DNA of 41,432 nt, taken from Ignavibacteriota bacterium. GTDB lineage: Bacteria > Bacteroidota > Ignavibacteria > UBA10030. Below are positions 18,005 through 27,021 of the stretch, piece after piece. How positions within the stretch are numbered: the first letter of the stretch is position 1; each line of letters starts with the position of its first letter. The translations under genes were made by a program, and so were the position numbers. Location: positions 1-41,432 of the forward strand of contig PLMK01000031.1 in NCBI GenBank assembly GCA_003142475.1, written 5' to 3'. The notes beneath the pieces were generated by a model. That model did not search any database, was not told the origin of the DNA, and saw only the letters and a program-made list of their open reading frames with translations.

Positions 18005-18625
18005 TCAATATATTCCAATAAGTTCTTGAATCGTTTTTCCTGAAATCACCTGGCCTTCTTTCAGAATTATTTGAACGGAGGCATGGCTGTGTTTCACACG
18101 GCGTACAAATTCAAATTCGGTGAATATACTAGTCCGCAATTTTGCGCCGTAGCGCTTCCATATAATGAGTGTCACGGCATCAACGTAACTGCGAATTTCT
18201 TGTTCCAGCATCCAATTATTGATGATAAGACACAAATCAACGGTGGTGTCATGCGCGTCTCGTTTCATAACACTGTTGCCATAAAGAATCGCACTCTCGA
18301 CATACATGGACAGTTCTTTCCGCAATCGTTTGGTAAGTCGTCCAAGGTGCCGACGTTCGATTTCGAGCATAGGAAGAATTCCTTCGTGCCATAAACGGTG
18401 TTCACGGTTGATGGCGAAGCGGTGATCGCGCCCGCCCCTGCTGCAATTCACGAAACCGATGTGTTCAAGCCGCTTCAATGCCTTCAGACTGGACCGGTGA
18501 CTCATATGAGAAAGCCGCGCAATTTCTCTGCCGGAAAGCGGCCGTGCCGCATCCATGAGAACCCGAAGCGTAGAAATATGCGACCACGTGGAAAAGACTT
18601 CGTCAAGAATATAATCGAAACGCAT
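18005..18625 (-). CDS. Winged-helix DNA-binding protein with degenerate nucleotidyltransferase domain
   Basis: I start this protein at the ATG at 18625 (206 residues) because AAGGAT lies 5 nt upstream; a Met 15 codons earlier has no ribosome site. Residues about 14-72 form a winged helix (STLRVLMDAARPLSGREIARLSHMS, recognition helix HRSSLKALKRLEHIGFV, wing NCSRGGRDHRFAIN). Residues about 105-200 resemble the MNT-type nucleotidyltransferase fold (ESAILYGNSVMKRDAHDTTVDLCLIIN), but the catalytic GS-x-DxD pattern is weakened: GN replaces the usual GS pair and the first Asp of DxD is Thr. This suggests a ligand-sensing regulator rather than an active enzyme. It is divergent from the hyp-hox operon across a 273-nt gap that contains a perfect palindrome, so autoregulation and control of the hydrogenase genes is a reasonable inference. 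Confidence 0.75.
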   Translation of the reverse strand: MRFDYILDEVFSTWSHISTLRVLMDAARPLSGREIARLSHMSHRSSLKALKRLEHIGFVNCSRGGRDHRFAINREHRLWHEGILPMLEIERRHLGRLTKRLRKELSMYVESAILYGNSVMKRDAHDTTVDLCLIINNWMLEQEIRSYVDAVTLIIWKRYGAKLRTSIFTEFEFVRRVKHSHASVQIILKEGQVISGKTIQELIGIY

Positions 18626-18726
18626 ACATGATCCTTCTTGTGCCGGCAGAAAATTTGGCGTAACTTTCATGCAGCGGCAATTGGAATGTACCGGTTTTTA
18701 AAATACTTTAAGGACTGTATCTCTGT

Positions 18727-18748
18727 ATGGATACAAAAGTATCCATAA
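18727..18748. promoter_or_regulatory. Perfect 9-bp-arm palindrome, candidate operator between regulator and hypA
   Basis: Left arm TATGGATAC (18727-18735), spacer AAAA, right arm GTATCCATA (18740-18748). The two arms are exact reverse complements. The site lies about 100 nt upstream of the winged-helix gene start and 150 nt upstream of hypA, in the shared divergent promoter region. Perfect dyads of this size are typical dimeric winged-helix operators. Confidence 0.7.
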
Positions 18749-18898
18749 TATAGCAGAATATTCATTTTCAGGAAAGCGGCTTTTAAAATTTTCGCATAAC
18801 TGAAAAGCGGAAGGCTGTTTTATGCTAAAGAAGTCGCTTCGCAGATCGGTACATTTCTTGTTTTATTAAAGTCGATTCAATTAAGAAATTGTAATCTA

Positions 18899-19261
18899 AT
18901 GCATGAACTTTCAATTGCACAGAATATTGTCGAGATTATTCACAAGCACATTCCCGAAGCAGAATGGGAAAAAGTTGCTTCCGTTCATTTAAAGATCGGT
19001 AAGGTTGCTGGAGTGGTGTCGGATTCTCTGGATTTTTCTTTCCAAGCAATTACGGCTGAGACGTCGCTTCGTAATACGCGTTTGGAAGTGGAGTCCATTC
19101 CGTTCCGTGTTCTCTGTAACGCATGCGGCGTTACAACGGAAAACGAAGTCGGATTTACGGTGTGCAGTGAATGTGGAAGCGGCAACACAAAAGTTCTTTC
19201 TGGATCAGAATTAGATATTACTGAAATAGAAATAGCAGAACCGGCAGTGAAAATTTCATGA
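18899..19261 (+). CDS. hypA: Hydrogenase nickel-insertion protein HypA
   Basis: This 120-residue protein begins MHELSIAQNIVEII, the conserved start whose Met-His-Glu binds nickel. Its C-terminal zinc site has two CxxC pairs (CNACG and CSECG, about residues 78-98). HypA hands Ni to the [NiFe] hydrogenase large-subunit precursor together with HypB. It is the first gene of the hyp-hox operon, and hypB starts inside its stop codon (4-nt overlap). No good SD is seen, only TTAAGAAA. hypC, hypD, hypE and hypF, needed for the Fe(CN)2CO part, are not in the window and must lie elsewhere if the hydrogenase is functional. Confidence 0.96.
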   Translation: MHELSIAQNIVEIIHKHIPEAEWEKVASVHLKIGKVAGVVSDSLDFSFQAITAETSLRNTRLEVESIPFRVLCNACGVTTENEVGFTVCSECGSGNTKVLSGSELDITEIEIAEPAVKIS

Positions 19262-19902
19262 GTATCGTAACAATAGAGCGAAAAGTTTTGGAGAAGAATG
19301 ACGAGCTTGCGTTGCAAAACCGAGAAGTTTTCCAACGGCATGGATTGTTCGTAGTGAATATTGTGAGTTCGCCTGGTTCCGGCAAGACGAGTATTTTAGA
19401 GCAGACATTGGAACATCTGAAAAATAAACTTCACATTGCAGTAATTGAAGGCGATGTGCAGACTGATTTTGATGCGCAACGTGTTGCAAAGTTTAATGTA
19501 CCCGTTGTGCAGATTGTGACAAATGGCGGGTGTCATCTCGATGCAAAATTAGTGCAAGATGCTCTTGCCAGCATTAATCTTGATGGAATTAAACTTTTAA
19601 TCATAGAGAACGTTGGTAATCTGGTATGTCCTGCCAATTATGATTTGGGTGAAAACGTGAAAGTTGTTGTGGCAAGCACAACGGAAGGCGATGACAAACC
19701 TTTGAAGTATCCAACAATGTTTCGTAACGCCTCTGCTCTTCTCATCAACAAGATCGATCTTTTACCATATATCAACTGCAATCTTACTGAATTAAAAACC
19801 AATGCTCTTAAAATAAATCCAAAACTGAAAGTCTTTGAAACATCCTGCACGACAAAACAAGGAATTGCAGAATGGTGTACTTGGCTGGAAAAACAAGTTT
19901 AG
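19258..19902 (+). CDS. hypB: Hydrogenase nickel-incorporation GTPase HypB
   Basis: This 214-residue SIMIBI GTPase drives Ni transfer to the hydrogenase large subunit. Seen: P-loop SSPGSGKTS (about 37-45), EGDVQTDFDA, the metal-binding GGCHLDA segment at the dimer interface, ENVGNLVCPANYDLGE, and the guanine motif NKIDL. It lacks both the N-terminal CxxCGC high-affinity nickel motif and the His-rich stretch found in some HypB proteins, so nickel storage is not expected from this chain. It overlaps hypA by 4 nt and is followed after 73 nt by hoxE. Confidence 0.96.
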   Translation: MSIVTIERKVLEKNDELALQNREVFQRHGLFVVNIVSSPGSGKTSILEQTLEHLKNKLHIAVIEGDVQTDFDAQRVAKFNVPVVQIVTNGGCHLDAKLVQDALASINLDGIKLLIIENVGNLVCPANYDLGENVKVVVASTTEGDDKPLKYPTMFRNASALLINKIDLLPYINCNLTELKTNALKINPKLKVFETSCTTKQGIAEWCTWLEKQV

Positions 19903-19975: not shown

Positions 19976-20491
19976 ATGGTACAAGCAGAAATAAAAAATC
20001 ATCCAAGCGGCGACAATCGATTTAAGTTGCTCGACCGTGCGATTACAAAGCATCATGGAAGCGGCGATGCATTAATCGAGATTCTTCATGTGGCACAGGG
20101 CATTTTTGGATTCCTCGAAAATGATCTGATGGTCTATATTGCCAATGCACTGAAACTTCCGCTTAGCCGCGTGTACGGCGTGGCAACGTTTTATCATTTC
20201 TTCCGACTCAAACCGCAAGGCGAACACACTTTTGTGCTCTGCACCGGAACTGCATGTTATGTAAAAGGAGCAAGTGAAATTCAAAAAGCTGTTGAGCATC
20301 ATTGTGCGTGCAAATTCGGTGAGACAACGAAGGACAACAAAGTATCTCTCATCTCAGCACGTTGTGTTGGCTCATGCGGCTTGGCACCTGTAGCCGTGCT
20401 GGACAACGCTGTTTCCGGTAAGATGACTCCGAATCATGCGACAGAGCTTATTAAACAATGGCAGGAAGAAAAGAAGGAGGTTGCAGCATGA
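19976..20491 (+). CDS. hoxE: NAD-linked hydrogenase HoxE / NuoE-like [2Fe-2S] subunit
   Basis: This 171-residue thioredoxin-fold ferredoxin has four cluster ligands in the NuoE pattern: Cys89 and Cys94 (CTGTAC) and Cys130 and Cys134 (CVGSC). The N-terminal helical part reads [15 protein letters not shown] ... [19 protein letters not shown], as in NuoE. It transfers electrons within the diaphorase module of a bidirectional hydrogenase. A complex I origin is excluded by the neighbours, which are hydrogenase subunits, and by the absence of other nuo genes. The next gene starts within its last codons (ATGA overlap). Confidence 0.92.
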
Positions 20492-22152
20492 CAGTTGAAG
20501 ATCTCCGTGAGCTCGCGGAAAAAGAACAAGCGCGGCAAGCGCAGTTTGAACACCGCATTTTGTATTGTTCATCCGCAGGTTGTGTCTCAAGCGGATGCGA
20601 TGCAGTAAAAGCTGAATTGAAAAAAGCGATCGAAGAACTCGGTTTGACAAATAAATGTGAATTACTTGGTACCGGCTGCCTTGGTCTGTGCGGCGAAGGC
20701 CCCTTAGTGTTTGTACATTCTGACCCTACACTCTATCAGCATGTAGATGCAAAAGTGGCACGAAGAATTGTGGAAGAACACATTGGGCAAGGCAAAAAAG
20801 TTAAAGAGAATGAGATTGATTTGAAAGATCCATTCTTTGCATCGCAGACAAAAATTGTGCTTGAGAACATGGGCAAAATCGATGCCGAAAGCATTGAGGA
20901 GTACATTGCAGCGGACGGATATGAAGCGCTTGCCAAGGCTCTTACCGAAATGGGGCCCGAAGAAGTTATTGGTGAAATTCGTAAAGCCGGATTACGCGGT
21001 CGCGGCGGTGCAGGTTATCCAACCGGATTAAAATGGGATATTGTTCGTAAAGGTGTGTCCGATCAAAAGTATGTTGTTTGTAACGCTGATGAAGGAGACC
21101 CTGGTGCATTTATGGATCGCAGCGTACTTGAAGGCGATCCACATCGTGTGCTAGAAGGTATGGCTATCGCCGGATATGCAGTTGGGGCCAACCAGGGATA
21201 CATTTATGCACGCGCAGAATATCCGCTTGCAATAGAACGGTTGAAGACAGCAATCAAACAAGCAGAAAAACTTGGCTTATTGGGAAACAGAATTTTAGAA
21301 TCACAATTTAATTTCCGCATTGATATTCGCATTGGAGCAGGTGCGTTTGTTTGTGGCGAAGAAACCGCGTTACTGCGTTCTGTTATGGGACGCCGTGGCC
21401 GTCCAAAAGTGCGTCCGCCATATCCTTCAGAAAAGGGTTTGTGGGGAAAACCGACGGTTATTAATAATGTTGAAACGTACGCTAACATTGCTCCCATATT
21501 GAGGAATGGAAGCGCATGGTTTGCGGGCATTGGAACTCAGAAAAGTCCCGGCACAAAAGTTTTTGCGCTTGCCGGTAAGATCAACCGCACTGGTCTTGTC
21601 GAAGTTCCAATGGGAATTCCGCTTAAGAAAATCATTTTCGATATCGGCGGAGGAACTCCAGAAGGAACGGAGTTTAAAGCGGCACAAACCGGCGGGCCAT
21701 CCGGTGGTTGTATTCCGAAAGAACATCTCGACCTCCCCGTTGATTATGAATCGCTTCAAACAGTCGGTTCTATTATGGGAAGCGGCGGAATGATTATTAT
21801 GGACAACACGTCCGACATGGTGGATGTAGCAAAATACTTCATGGATTTCTGCATGGATGAATCGTGCGGAAAATGCATTCCATGTCGTGTGGGGACAAAA
21901 CACATCTACACACTGCTTGAAAAGATTGTCAATCGTCAAGCGACAGAAGATGATTTTGCATTATTAAAGGAACTTTGCATGATGGTGAAAGAAACCAGTC
22001 TGTGCGGACTTGGTCAAGCGGCACCGAATCCAGTCCTCTCTACAATCCGCTTTTTCAATGAAGAATATATATCGAAGTTGAAGCCCGCGACAACCTTCAA
22101 TGCGACCGGTGAAGAACATTCACCAGTAACTGTCGCAAAGGAGGTAAAATAA
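20488..22152 (+). CDS. hoxF: NAD-linked hydrogenase diaphorase subunit HoxF / NuoF-like
   Basis: I start at 20488 (554 residues) because GGAGG lies 7 nt upstream and the ATGA overlaps the hoxE stop; the frame is open 10 codons earlier. Domains: a thioredoxin-like [2Fe-2S] domain (about 20-100; [23 protein letters not shown]), the FMN/NADH fold ([40 protein letters not shown]) and a C-terminal [4Fe-4S] site ([13 protein letters not shown] ... SLCGLG). It oxidises or reduces NAD(P)H and passes electrons to HoxE and HoxU. There is no extra C-terminal two-cluster ferredoxin domain like that of Thermotoga HydB. The Cys-complete N-terminal domain is also seen in electron-bifurcating HydB/HndC proteins, so co-use of ferredoxin is not excluded. 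Confidence 0.93.
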
Positions 22153-22887
22153 ATGGCGGTCATTACATTTATAATAGACGATGAACAATATAGCGCTCAA
22201 GAAGGTGTTACAATTTTGCAGGTTGCACGTGATAATAAAATTCACATACCAACGCTGTGCTATCTCGACGGTTTATCCACACTTGGTGCTTGCCGGTTGT
22301 GTGTTGTGGAAATTGAAGGATCTCCAAAACTTTTTCCTGCTTGTACAACAAAGCCGACTGAAAATATGGTTGTTCGTACTAATACCGAGAAGTTGAAAAA
22401 ATACAGACGGATTATTGTTGAATTGTTAGCATCTGAAGGAAACCATCAATGCGCAGTATGTGTTGTCAACGGTCATTGCCAATTACAGGATTTAGCATAT
22501 GAAGTAGGCCTCGACCATGTACGCTTCCCTTATCTGTTCCCGAAGAAATCACTTGATGCCACGCACAAAGATTTTGTGATGGATCGGAACCGATGCGTCT
22601 TGTGCACGCGCTGTGTGAGGGTATGTCACGAAGTAGAAGGTGCCCACGTCTGGGATATTTCGGGGCGCGGTATTCATTGCGAAATCATTGCCGATCTCAA
22701 TCAGCCGTGGGGCACATCAGCAAACTGCACTTCATGCGGCAAGTGTGTTAGCGTTTGCCCGACTGGTGCATTATTTGAAAAAGGTGCCTCTGTTGGCGAG
22801 ATGCAAAAGGAACACGACTTTATCAAATTTATTGTTACTGCGCGCAACAAGCATGAATGGGTACATATTGCACCCGAAGACGAATAA
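22153..22887 (+). CDS. hoxU: NAD-linked hydrogenase HoxU / NuoG N-terminal-like iron-sulfur subunit
   Basis: This 244-residue electron-transfer subunit has every expected cluster. The [2Fe-2S] domain uses Cys36, Cys47, Cys50 and Cys64. The His-ligated [4Fe-4S] site uses His98, Cys100, Cys103 and Cys109 ([12 protein letters not shown]). Two ferredoxin-type [4Fe-4S] motifs follow: [11 protein letters not shown] (148-158) and [12 protein letters not shown] (192-203). It links HoxEF to the hydrogenase module. It begins directly after the hoxF stop, with SD AAGGAGG inside the end of hoxF 8 nt before the ATG, so translation is coupled. Confidence 0.94.
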
Positions 22888-22941
22888 TGATGTTTAATCC
22901 CAAATGAAAAAATTAATAAATAGAAACTGAGAACATAAACT

Positions 22942-23478
22942 ATGAAACCAAGAGTAGCAACTGCATGGCTGGGAGGATGTTCGGGCTGTCATATGTCGTT
23001 CCTCGATTTAGATGAACGGCTTATCGAATTGGCAGATAAGATAGATCTTGTCTATTCTCCTATAGCCGATGTTAAAGAATTTCCGGAAAATGTTGATGTA
23101 ACGCTCGTTGAAGGTGCGGTTACAAATTCCGAAAACGAAGAGCTGGCGCATATAATTCGGAAAAACTCACGTCTTGTTGTCGCGTTCGGCGATTGTGCAA
23201 CGACGGGTAACGTTACTGCGATGCGAAATCCATTCAAGCTCGAAGATGTGGAAAAACGTGCATATATAGAGCTTGCCGATAAAAATCCTCGTATTCCAGA
23301 TGAATATGTTACCATTGCACAGCTTCTGAATATAGCACATCCATTACATGAAATTATTAAAGTGGATGTGTGGTTGCATGGCTGTCCACCGACAGCTGAT
23401 CAAATATGGTTCACTGTGAACGAATTATTGCAGGGTAAAATTCCAGTGTTACCGCCCGTATATTTGCGGTACGGATAG
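22942..23478 (+). CDS. hoxY: NAD-linked [NiFe] hydrogenase small subunit HoxY
   Basis: This 178-residue protein is the short small-subunit type of group 3 hydrogenases, holding only the proximal [4Fe-4S] cluster. Likely ligands are Cys13 and Cys16 ([12 protein letters not shown]), Cys85 (FGDCATTGN) and Cys148 (HGCPPTADQ). There is no Tat signal, which agrees with a cytoplasmic enzyme. A 54-nt gap separates it from hoxU, and a 107-nt gap containing a possible 28-codon frame separates it from hoxH. Confidence 0.95.
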
Positions 23479-23491
23479 ATGATGCGCAGTT

Positions 23492-23578
23492 ATGAAAATG
23501 TTTTATGATCTCTATCTTGTGTGGCAAGAGCTGACAAGTTGGAATAAGTATCGCATGACAATTTTAATAGAGAAATGA
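23492..23578 (+). CDS. Possible 28-residue peptide between hoxY and hoxH
   Basis: An ATG-started frame fills most of the hoxY-hoxH gap and stops 7 nt before the hoxH start. The product is basic and aromatic, starting [14 protein letters not shown]. There is no clear SD. It may be an upstream frame that tunes hoxH translation, or chance. I do not recognise it. Confidence 0.2.
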
Positions 23579-23585
23579 GAAGATT

Positions 23586-25019
23586 ATGTCGAAAACAATA
23601 ACATTAGCACCTGTGACCCGAATCGAAGGCCACGCAAAAATTACTATTCAATTAGATGACAATAACGATGTGATAGATGCACGGTTCCACGTGAATGAGT
23701 TCCGCGGGTTTGAAAAATTCACGGAAGGACGTTTACTTTGGGAAATGCCCGGTATTACATCACGGATTTGTGGCATATGTCCTGCCAGTCATCTTTTGAC
23801 ATCTGCAAAAGCCGGTGACGATATTCTTGCGGTAGAAATTCCTGAGACCGCTGAAAAATTGCGCCGCCTTTTAACACTTGCACAGTGGTTACAATCTCAT
23901 GCGCTCAGCTTTTTCCATCTTTCGGCACCTGATTTTTTGCTGGGATTCGATTCGAATCCGGCGACACGAAATGTTTTTGGCCTTATTGCCGCCGATAAGG
24001 AATTCACTAAACGCGGAATTCGTCTAAGAAAATATGGTCAGGAGATTATAGAAATTCTTGGCGGCCGCCGCATCCACACGCCGTGGACAGTTCCCGGTGG
24101 TGTGAGAGAACCATTAGATCCTACGAAAAAGGATTATATGCTCGGCTGGATTCCTGAAGCAAAAGAAACAGTCGGACTGGCATTAGATGCTCTTAAGAAA
24201 ATCCATAAAAAATATGCAAAGGAAATTCCAGAGTTTGGTAATTTCCGTTCGTTGCTTGTCGGGCTTGTATCCAAAGACGGCGGGCTCGAATACTACGACG
24301 GTTTGTTGCGTATTAAAGACGGCAACGGCAATACTATCGCCGATAAATTGGATCCAAGAAAATACTTCGAATACTTTGGAGAAGCAGTTGAACCATGGTC
24401 ATATTTGAAATTCCCGTACTATAAACCGTTAGATTATCCGGATGGAATGTACCGCGTTGGTCCCCTGGCGCGTGTAAATATTTGTGACTATATCGAAACA
24501 CCGATGGCTGAAGCAGAGCGGAAGGTTTTTAAAGCTCTCAGCGGCAATGTAGGGGTCGTGAATAACTCTTTCTATTATCATTATGCACGCTGCATTGAAA
24601 TGCTTTTTGCGGTGGAAAAAATTGAAATGTTATTGAAAGATCCTGCACTTCTTGGTACGAACATACGTGCACAGGCTTCTGTTAATCGCCCCGAAGGAGT
24701 TGGTTGTACTGAAGCGCCGCGTGGTGTGTTATTCCATCATTATAAAGTGAACAAAGACGGCGTTATCCTGAAGGCGAATCTTATTATTGCTACGGCGCAG
24801 AATAATATCGCAATGAATCGAACTGTGAGGCAGATTGCGGCACATTTTATCGATGGTAAAAAAGGAAAAATCACAGAAGGCATTTTGAATCGAGTAGAAG
24901 CCGGAATCCGCTGTTACGACCCGTGCTTATCCTGCTCAACGCATGCGCTTGGTCAGATGCCGTTACATATAGAATTGGTGAGCGCAAGCGGAGAGGTGCT
25001 TGACGAAGTTCAACGATGA
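23586..25019 (+). CDS. hoxH: NAD-linked [NiFe] hydrogenase large subunit HoxH
   Basis: This 477-residue catalytic subunit carries the two active-site motifs: [10 protein letters not shown] near the N-terminus (Cys62, Cys65) and DPCLSCSTH near the C-terminus (Cys447, Cys450, His453). These four cysteines hold the Ni-Fe(CN)2CO centre that interconverts H2 and protons. A 24-residue tail after His453 is the segment that a maturation protease removes once nickel is in place; the matching protease gene follows with a 4-nt overlap. The neighbours HoxE, F, U and Y place it in group 3d, the cytoplasmic NAD-coupled bidirectional enzymes. The physiological direction, H2 uptake or release, cannot be read from sequence. 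Confidence 0.97.
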
Positions 25020-25465
25020 GCAAAGTGCTCGTCATCGGTTATGGCAACACGCTTCGCGGTGATGATGCGGCGGGTGTTCAAGCCGCCGAGTTAATTGCAA
25101 AGCGTCATCCAGAAATCGTTTGTGTTTGTCTGCACCAGCTTGTCCCGGAATTATCGGAACAAATAGCTGAATTTGATGTTGTTTTTTTTATCGATGCACA
25201 AAAAGATATCACACAACCGAATGTTCGGTTGGTTGCGCCTAGTATTGAGGCCGATCAGTCGCGCACACATTTTATCTCACCTGAATCTCTTCTTGCTTTA
25301 AGCCAACAGCTCTATCAGCATGTACCAGCAAAGGCATATATAGTTGGTATTCCTGCATCACAATTTGAATTCAGCGAAAAACTATCTGTGCAAACAGATA
25401 GTGCGATGCATGAATGTATTGAACTTGTGGACCGAATGATCCTTGAAACACAACAGATGGCTTAA
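25016..25465 (+). CDS. hoxW: Hydrogenase maturation endopeptidase HoxW (HyaD/HybD family)
   Basis: This 149-residue protease cleaves the C-terminal tail of HoxH after nickel insertion. The family motif [13 protein letters not shown] (about 8-20) contains the nickel-sensing Asp16, and FFIDAQ supplies the second conserved acidic residue (Asp60). A His in RTHFISPE is the likely third ligand. It overlaps hoxH by 4 nt and closes the hyp-hox operon. The stop lies only 7 nt from the stop of the convergent larB gene, so no separate terminator fits between them. Confidence 0.93.
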
Positions 25466-25472
25466 ACTGGGC

Positions 25473-26228
25473 TTACTTGTTTGAAGAAACCTTTATCGAT
25501 ATGATTTTAAATGCTGCTGCTGCCGCTCCAACGCCGTTATCTATATTAACAACCGAAACTCCTGGAGCGCAACTCGTGAGCATCGCAAAGAGTGCCGTGA
25601 AACCGGAAAGTGCAGTGCCATACCCGACGCTTGTTGGAAGCGCAATGATTGGTTGCGGATATAGTCCTGCGATGACGCTTGGGAGAGCACCTTCCATCCC
25701 TGCTGCAACAATAAGAACATCACAATCACGCAGCTTCGTATCGTTGGCAAAAAGACGATGAATTCCAGCAACGCCTACATCAAAAACTCTCTGCACTTCT
25801 ACACCGAGACTTTCCAGAATGAGCGCCGCTTCTTCGCATGCTGTTATATCGGTGGTTCCGGCGGAAACAATACCGATTCGTCTGCCGAAAACTTGCGCCA
25901 ACGGTTTCCCGATACGGAAGGAGTGTGCATCTTTTAAAAACAATCCCTTCGGAAAAGTTTTTTTTAATTGCGGGAAAAATTCCTTCGGACAGCGTGTACC
26001 GAGCACAAGTTTTTGTTTTGCATAAAGCGCTTTTGCGATTGCGATAATGCGCCCTATTGATTTATTTTCACAATAGATCACCTCCGGAATCGAAGTCCTA
26101 TCACGACGCGACATATCGATCTTTGCATACTCTTCAATAGTGTGCAGCGATGATGAACGAAGCTGTTCTTTCTTGGGGACGGATTTGTAGTTTTGATGAA
26201 TTGCTGAGCGGGACTTTCTATTTTGCAT
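25473..26228 (-). CDS. larB: Nickel-pincer cofactor biosynthesis protein LarB
   Basis: LarB carboxylates nicotinic acid adenine dinucleotide and hydrolyses it to pyridinium-3,5-biscarboxylate mononucleotide, the first step of nickel-pincer nucleotide synthesis. The PurE-like C-terminal domain is plain: VSAGTTDITACEEAAL, DVGVAGIHRLF, VAAGMEGALPSVIAGL, PTSVGYGTA and NIDNGVGAA. I choose the ATG at 26228 (251 residues): it overlaps larE by 11 nt and has GGGAG 10 nt upstream; an earlier ATG at 26276 would overlap larE by 59 nt. The N-terminus is very basic. larC and larA are not in the window, so the final nickel insertion and the user enzyme must be elsewhere. Confidence 0.9.
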   Translation of the reverse strand: MQNRKSRSAIHQNYKSVPKKEQLRSSSLHTIEEYAKIDMSRRDRTSIPEVIYCENKSIGRIIAIAKALYAKQKLVLGTRCPKEFFPQLKKTFPKGLFLKDAHSFRIGKPLAQVFGRRIGIVSAGTTDITACEEAALILESLGVEVQRVFDVGVAGIHRLFANDTKLRDCDVLIVAAGMEGALPSVIAGLYPQPIIALPTSVGYGTALSGFTALFAMLTSCAPGVSVVNIDNGVGAAAAAFKIISIKVSSNK

Positions 26229-27021
26229 TCTGTACGATCTCCCGATTGAGCTTCCCGGATTTAAACCCTTCTTCATCTATAAGCACTTCTTTATATCCCA
26301 ACGATATCAAAAAACTCTGCACATCACTAAATATAGTTGTAAGCTTCGGAATAGCTAAAGCATCCACCTCGATCTTTGCAGTTGTCTGAAAGTGCCGCAC
26401 ACGTACATTCGTAAATCCTTTTTCTCGAATGTACCTCTCCGCCTGAGCAATCATACCAATAGAAGCTCTATCGATCATTGTTCCATAAGGAATACGTGAA
26501 GAAAGGCATGGTGCAGACGGCTTATCGTGATTCGGCAGAGCATATAATAGAGCAGCATCGCGGACATCTTGCTTGGTGAATTGGGCTTCAATCAATGGAG
26601 AGCGGACCTGATATTCTTTTGCGGCAATTCTTCCTGGGCGATAATCTCCGATATCATCTAAATTTGCGCCATCCATTATGAATGGAATATTTTCTTTCTT
26701 TGCGATTTCGCCAAGCTGTCTATAGAGTTCTTGCTTGCAGAAATAACATCGGTTAACAGGATTTGCTGCATAATTCTTTATTTCAAGTTCATTATATGCA
26801 ATTTCCCGAAAATTGAGGTCATACTTTTTGGCAATTCTTTTTGCAAGCTCAATATCTTCCACTGTAATAGTTTCTGTTGCTGCCATTACGATGAGTGCAT
26901 TCTTGCCAAGCATTTTATTGGCAGCAAATGCGACGAGTGTCGAATCCACTCCTCCGGAATACCCGACAATCACTTTTCCCAAACTTTGAATGAGAGCCTC
27001 GAGCTGCTCTGTTTTTTGCAT
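26218..27021 (-). CDS. larE: Pyridinium dithioacid synthase LarE (ATP-dependent sulfur transferase)
   Basis: This 267-residue PP-loop enzyme has the ATP motif GYSGGVDST (20-28) and the family blocks NRCYFCKQELY, DGANLDDIGDYRPG and APCLSSRIPYG. LarE adenylates the LarB product and converts its carboxylates to thiocarboxylates. Three cysteines stand out: Cys92 and Cys95 in a CxxC, and Cys172 in APCLSSR. As I recall, LarE proteins with only the last Cys give up that sulfur, while those with all three bind a [4Fe-4S] cluster and are catalytic. This one fits the cluster type (inference from family knowledge). It is first in the larE-larB pair, convergent with the hydrogenase operon. Confidence 0.92.
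   Translation of the reverse strand: MQKTEQLEALIQSLGKVIVGYSGGVDSTLVAFAANKMLGKNALIVMAATETITVEDIELAKRIAKKYDLNFREIAYNELEIKNYAANPVNRCYFCKQELYRQLGEIAKKENIPFIMDGANLDDIGDYRPGRIAAKEYQVRSPLIEAQFTKQDVRDAALLYALPNHDKPSAPCLSSRIPYGTMIDRASIGMIAQAERYIREKGFTNVRVRHFQTTAKIEVDALAIPKLTTIFSDVQSFLISLGYKEVLIDEEGFKSGKLNREIVQNAK

Follow-up and report, generated by a model that had tools for sequence, protein, structure and literature searches.

A gene divergent from the hypA-hypB-hoxEFUYH operon of an Ignavibacteriota bacterium is probably a recruited orphan antitoxin, whose product, lacking both a HEPN partner and the catalytic motif of its relatives, would bind a retained dyad upstream of its own gene, limit its own expression and tune that of the hyp-hox genes. 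The gene lies in a 41,432 nt stretch, here termed the window, corresponding to contig PLMK01000031.1 (Table 1). Its relatives elsewhere are predicted to be the antitoxin-position members of two-gene modules, in which a winged-helix domain fused to an MNT-type nucleotidyltransferase domain (wHTH-MNT) is followed by a HEPN-type gene. This likely origin, a wHTH-MNT/HEPN pair nearest to the catalogued system PDC-M05, was absent from the original prediction made for the locus.

Table 1. Positions of the orphan gene, its predicted operator and the adjoining hyp-hox genes within the window
Feature	Position	Strand	Remarks
wHTH-MNT orphan gene, likely CDS	18005..18625	-	206 aa; ORF extendable to 18670
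Winged-helix DNA-binding domain, residues 1-75	18401..18625	-	Weak Pfam MarR/HTH matches
Recognition-helix His43	18497-18499	-	Alignment column with the best association to operator type
Degenerate MNT (nucleotidyltransferase) domain, residues 105-206	18008..18313	-	Alignments with relatives
Operator dyad (predicted), TATGGATAC-AAAA-GTATCCATA	18726-18747	.	Perfect 9 bp arms
hypA upstream block, kept whether or not the regulator is present	18759..18836	+	blastn against congener gaps; alignment
Inverted repeat TTTTCAG...CTGAAAA	18765-18778 / 18793-18806		Within the hypA upstream block
hypA	18899..19261	+	Pfam HypA, 1.2e-31
hypB	19258..19902	+	Pfam CobW/HypB/UreG, 2.6e-21
hoxE, hoxF, hoxU, hoxY, hoxH, hydrogenase maturation protease	19976..25465	+	hox names from domain content and order

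The open frame (18005-18670, reverse strand) encodes 221 aa, of which 206 probably constitute the protein, because alignments with homologues begin at the methionine at 18625 and the sequence AGAAGG is found seven bases before it. The N-terminal half has weak MarR/HTH matches in Pfam (best E 0.0096, below cut-off), and no NTase model in the same database matched the C-terminal half at E up to 1. The latter aligns along its whole length with the relative at locus L014 (44% identity), which itself matches NTP_transf_2 at 3e-7. A PADLOC scan, which includes AbiE models, returned a match to PDC-M05A (8.9e-10, residues 37-208 of the 221 aa form) and none to AbiE at E up to 0.1, while the NCBIfam model MntA_antitoxin (NF047752) matched neither this protein nor the relatives L013 and L017, and matched L014 and L016 below cut-off. 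By its domain content, the protein is a member of the wHTH-MNT / PDC-M05A family, with a winged helix at its N terminus and an MNT domain at its C terminus. The original prediction had described such a fusion with a weakened active site, and the alignments bear this out, with G116-N117 and T128-x-D130 occupying the places where relatives have GS and DxD; the perfect palindrome it placed between the gene and the divergent hypA is likewise present. The AlphaFold2 model matched nothing in the PDB at E up to 0.001. The first eleven rows, with E from 0.02 to 0.063, all belong to HI0073 (1no5) or to entries for HEPN/MNT antitoxins, and the rows below are mixed; this is a hint only, because the model has a mean pLDDT of 56 and was built from a two-row alignment. 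A profile of seven family proteins matched several winged-helix regulators and, at 2e-4, the chain 9xbd_E, which has a nucleotidyltransferase domain. An active nucleotidyltransferase was rejected, the catalytic motif being lost.

Searching the 32 genomes of the family, the host's own included, identified seven homologues in six genomes. When the class was searched with a profile, 49 of its 391 genomes gave matches, 60 rows in all. The 55 loci inspected (the window, L013-L018 and L049-L096) hold 57 of these rows, the remaining three being fragments that were left out (G265:C182, G314:C230 and G225:C64). The alignment comprises 53 rows, excluding the broken genes L095 (with HEPN fragments) and L096 (without); L086 and L093 were additionally excluded from trees, and L073, with six bases upstream, from the operator test. 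Fifty of the aligned loci have no hyp or hox gene within the stretch viewed, and the other three are hypA-linked: the window, L013 (genome G006) and L017 (genome G018). A HEPN-type gene or fragment was found directly downstream on the same strand at 47 of the 50 non-hyp loci and at none of the hypA-linked three, a count that is partly circular in that the HEPN profile was built from these same loci. The HEPN frames span at least 100 codons at 40 of the 47 loci and are shorter at seven; of the three non-hyp loci without one, L052 and L093 are cut off by the end of their contigs, and at L089 no HEPN-type frame was detected. Of three partners scanned with the Pfam HEPN model, those of L014 and L015 passed the cut-off and that of L016 did not, while NTP_transf_2 passed in L014, L015, L016 and L018. 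The GSx10DxD motif is intact in 50 of the 53 rows, these being all of the non-hyp loci, and is missing solely from the three hypA-linked copies, with the altered loop nearly identical in the window and G006 (GN...TxD) and reading HP...TLS in L017.

No further hypA-linked copy emerged from an order-wide search (98 genomes; 14 matches in 12 of them, all already examined) or from a sample of the phylum (395 genomes; 17 match rows in 13, weak matches in G623 and G225 being left out), and no relative of the gene was found among plasmids and viral contigs. The host genome itself harbours a second wHTH-MNT gene on contig C58 (L018, 8609-9593), which has an intact motif and is followed by a short HEPN-like frame of 95 codons; to judge by eye, the genes around it encode multihaem cytochromes and transporters of sulfur compounds.

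Among catalogued systems, the closest on profile evidence appears to be the PADLOC phage-defence candidate PDC-M05, composed of the nucleotidyltransferase PDC-M05A and the HEPN protein PDC-M05B. The orphan matches PDC-M05A over almost its full length, the six relatives scanned match it too, and the relatives sit 5' of a HEPN gene. By contrast, the orphan itself has no HEPN partner, has a broken GSx10DxD motif and lies beside hypA. Of six HEPN partners scanned from the relatives, two match PDC-M05B weakly (E 0.0018 and 0.008) and the other four not at all. In addition, PDC-S09 is a better match than PDC-M05A for L066 and L069, so the family may be a sister lineage of PDC-M05. It also resembles the class II HEPN/MNT pairs (PF05168/PF01909) described in the available part of PMC7641770, as both domains score above their Pfam cut-offs at L014 and L015 and the RX4HXY motif is found in none of 48 HEPN frames of the relatives, 29 of which read HK[TN] at that position. 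It differs from them in that the MNT protein carries a DNA-binding domain and has tandem operators, and in that the window copy has neither partner nor catalytic motif. The accessible text of the same paper states that, to its authors' knowledge, no biochemistry had been done on class II pairs, and for this reason 'toxin-antitoxin' is a predicted label for the wHTH-MNT/HEPN family.

Resemblance to the HepT/MntA type VII toxin-antitoxin system of Shewanella (PMC7641770, in the portion available) is limited to a weak, model-based hint of an MNT-type C-terminal domain; unlike MntA, the orphan has no GSX10DXD motif and no partner toxin with RX4HXY. In the two MNT antitoxins for which the accessible parts of PMC7641770 and PMC11586414 describe mutants of this motif, the altered proteins no longer modify the toxin. 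The closest working model for the orphan is that of the AbiEi-type antitoxins, which according to the available sections of PMC7319586 repress their own promoters through inverted repeats: here too an inverted repeat lies upstream of the gene and is conserved with the protein, which may act from it as a repressor. The architecture is unlike that of AbiEi/Rv2827c, as the AbiE nucleotidyltransferase is the toxin, whereas the one described here shares a polypeptide with the DNA-binding domain and takes the antitoxin's place in the gene pair. As far as their accessible texts go, PMC6929052 cites earlier work in describing MNT as a repressor of HEPN that binds DNA; PMC2701414 considers that the DNA-binding component of MNT-HEPN systems might act in trans; PMC3710099 describes domesticated MNT-HEPN systems that became protein-modifying regulatory enzymes; and PMC3874152 terms orphans of this kind solitary antitoxins. 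Within the open-access literature, a scope that leaves out most subscription papers, neither a HEPN/MNT antitoxin acting as a hydrogenase regulator nor a paper on the operators of wHTH-MNT proteins was found. The wHTH-MNT family was therefore known already as a candidate, and what is new is the orphan with its kept operator beside hyp-hox.

Taken alone, the palindrome is only moderately unusual. Among 2000 Markov-random sequences as long as the intergenic region, 41 (~2%) contained a perfect repeat of its size, and the window has five repeats of this kind where ten random copies averaged 1.7. Its conservation, however, argues against a chance origin. The hypA-linked relatives L013 and L017 each retain the 18 bp core with a single substitution, and when up to one mismatch is allowed, the genomes G006 and G018 (the latter 55% complete) contain one copy apiece, in both cases at this gene; G006 has the core dyad plus a further half-site, and in G018 the sequence TGGATATATAAGTATCCA extends to the start codon. 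In the host genome, the full 22 bp motif occurs once at up to two mismatches, and the sole exact copy of the core is that beside the gene, with two sites elsewhere at one mismatch; a regulon of many sites was accordingly not seen. An RNA element was also considered and rejected: the folding z-score of -3.5 comes from a region with several inverted repeats, in which none of the Rfam families passed its threshold. A sigma-70 promoter scan of 18620-18900 found none.

Most of the HEPN-paired genes have two 18 bp dyads upstream, 20 bp apart, with half-sites that vary by subclade (TGGATAC, TATATAC, TGTTTCC, TGTTACC, TGTAAGG and others). In 44 of the 49 non-hyp upstream regions, the best tandem pair was unequalled by any of 40 Markov shuffles, a test made at the 20 bp offset alone; the dyad survey allowed 20-22 bp and chose 20 nearly everywhere. 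The sequence TAnnTTTG, the Bacteroidota -7 consensus, abuts the first dyad in 21 of the 49 regions, and TAnnTT in 33, both being raw counts without a shuffle control. Across the upstream regions of L049-L094, the half-sites of the tandem dyads diversify alongside the recognition helix, providing a natural specificity series for wHTH-MNT/HEPN modules.

The association with operator type is strongest, among all alignment columns, at residue 43 of the recognition helix. Dyads of the type TGGATAC-N4-GTATCCA, defined by at most two mismatches in 14 bases within 150 bp, accompany His43 at 14 of 14 loci and occur at one of the 38 loci without this histidine (L076); the Fisher value of 8e-12 comes from counts that ignore kinship and include the near-copies L056/L058 and L091/L092. 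The histidine changes five times on the tree; two independent contrasts lie on well-supported branches, both concordant, which are too few for a sign test to reach significance. The window protein has both His43 and an exact dyad of this type, with one clear dyad in the orphans versus two in most relatives. The palindrome is, by this comparison, of the putative operator type of the wHTH-MNT family. As the original prediction proposed, it is very probably the protein's own site, given the covariation of operator and recognition helix and its presence at all three hypA-linked copies. The expectation that it would recur near orthologues held for the two hypA-linked relatives and did not extend to the other 20 hypA loci of the family, at which no dyad was found within two mismatches.

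Matches to HypA above cut-off were found in 23 of the 32 family genomes, weaker matches below it (L137-L139) being left out of the count. The regulator stands beside hypA at three of these 23 loci, equivalent to three of the 11 with contiguous hypA-hypB-hoxE as judged in a view of ~1.5 kb on each side of hypA; the other eight contiguous operons have no regulator gene. In the congeners G004, G005 and G007, the HlyD-MacB genes likewise lie opposite hypA, without an intervening regulator gene, and a block matching 18759-18836 is kept at 74-78% identity; no convincing relic of the gene was detected in the hypA gaps of these genomes or of G017 (best E 0.14). Since congeners without the gene retain this block, the hyp-hox operon does not need the regulator, and hypA has an upstream region of its own, with the regulator's dyad just outside. 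A further sequence upstream of hypA, GGTACATTTCTTG at 18848-18860, is conserved with small changes in the same three congeners, and together with the TTTTCAG...CTGAAAA repeat (18765-18806) it probably forms the operon's own control region. At the opposite end of the operon, the nickel-pincer cofactor genes larB and larE (25473-27021, reverse strand) are convergent to hoxH and the maturation protease. The related loci have features of their own: in G006 (L013, 8749-9579) an extra gene of 277 codons, lipoprotein- and peptidase-like by eye, lies between hypA and the regulator, and in G018 the regulator is followed on its own strand by a gene (L017, 2200-2667) that, judged by eye, resembles MarR.

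This arrangement bears on whether the orphan has any target other than itself. It is possible, if somewhat unlikely, that the protein binds its own operator alone and that the hypA side is a neutral landing site: the dyad is ~150 bp from hypA, congeners that lack the gene have the hypA upstream block all the same, and there is no second dyad within two mismatches near hypA. Such an account sits poorly with the finding that all three degenerate orphans face hypA, in two genera and in one case (G018) with other outer neighbours, and the constraint on the protein would be hard to explain for a pure self-repressor without another target. Self-regulation by the orphan is well supported by the comparison of operators, and the protein is most likely a local, self-regulating DNA-binding protein. 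The control of hyp-hox suggested by the original prediction is plausible on positional grounds: the shared orientation of the three orphans and the absence of any other exact core dyad from the host genome favour it, and their restriction to three of 23 hypA loci, the extra gene in G006 and the conservation of the block without the gene weigh against it.

The hypA-linked proteins form one side of a branch with 92/92 support in a tree of 51 rows rooted at the midpoint only, and the branch persists when recognition-helix columns are removed (96/92, in 98% of bootstrap trees), with the caution that L017 has a very long branch (2.55). They sit in an unresolved fork with the His-type L014, L053, L061 and L056/L058 and a mostly Pro-type group of 13. 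The hypAB tree does not group the three host genomes (two changes, weak support), leaving co-transfer with hypAB unsupported; because it splits the hosts, the history may have been either an old recruitment followed by several losses or repeated transfer. Between the window and G006, NG86 estimates were dN 0.162 and dS 1.25 overall, 0.111 and 1.08 for the winged-helix part, and 0.197 and 1.39 for the C-terminal part, with ratios that are rough because dS is near saturation. On these estimates, the putative ex-antitoxin is under purifying selection.

Constraint on a domain with a broken catalytic motif (dN/dS ~0.14-0.18 for the C-terminal part) could reflect a new role. In its most elaborate form, which seems rather improbable, the antitoxin would have been domesticated into a dedicated hyp-hox regulator that still reads the ancestral operator and whose emptied nucleotidyltransferase pocket senses a hydrogenase-linked signal. 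That the dead domain is a sensor of a nucleotide, redox state or nickel, gating DNA binding by the need for hydrogenase, is unlikely as a claim in itself: the altered loop differs little between the window and G006, but that of L017 is wholly different, so no common pocket is kept, and dimerisation alone could account for the constraint. The same estimates disfavour a decaying relic, because both domains are constrained. Loss of the partner and active site, and a patchy distribution beside hypA in three of 32 family genomes, would suit a functionless remnant of a toxin-antitoxin pair; this is nevertheless very unlikely, as the frame is open in all three genomes, dN/dS is ~0.13 between two of them, and the operator and specificity residue have been retained together. 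Most improbable of all is an antitoxin acting in trans on a HEPN toxin elsewhere in the genome, for although the second wHTH-MNT gene on C58 precedes a HEPN-like frame, that frame is the genome's sole match to the L014 HEPN and is short (39 residues matched), the adjoining wHTH-MNT gene retains the motif, is of the Pro type in its recognition helix and goes with a different kind of operator, and the window copy has no catalytic motif.

The recruited orphan antitoxin is the probable reading, drawn from just three hypA-linked copies, all in one family, and from relatives whose HEPN partners are predicted to be toxic. Its ancestor would have been the wHTH-MNT member of a two-gene wHTH-MNT/HEPN module, which, to judge from conservation, probably repressed itself via tandem TGGATAC-N4-GTATCCA dyads. 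In one lineage of an Ignavibacteria-like family, a copy lies divergent from hypA-hypB-hoxEFUYH; by its sequence, this copy has no HEPN partner and has lost GSx10DxD, retaining the DNA-binding domain, His43 and one dyad. Acting as a dimer, the orphan would most likely bind this dyad, as the covariation suggests, and the operator's place is consistent with it limiting its own expression. From its position in the shared intergenic region, it may also tune hyp-hox transcription.

If so, the locus makes it possible to follow how an antitoxin turned into an orphan DNA-binding protein next to a metabolic operon, with the unaltered relatives, the loss of the motif and the retention of the operator all open to view. 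In the wider family, HEPN/MNT modules have DNA binding built into the MNT protein and operators arranged in tandem, and the pairing of His43 with TGGATAC represents a candidate one-residue rule that could be tested by point mutation.
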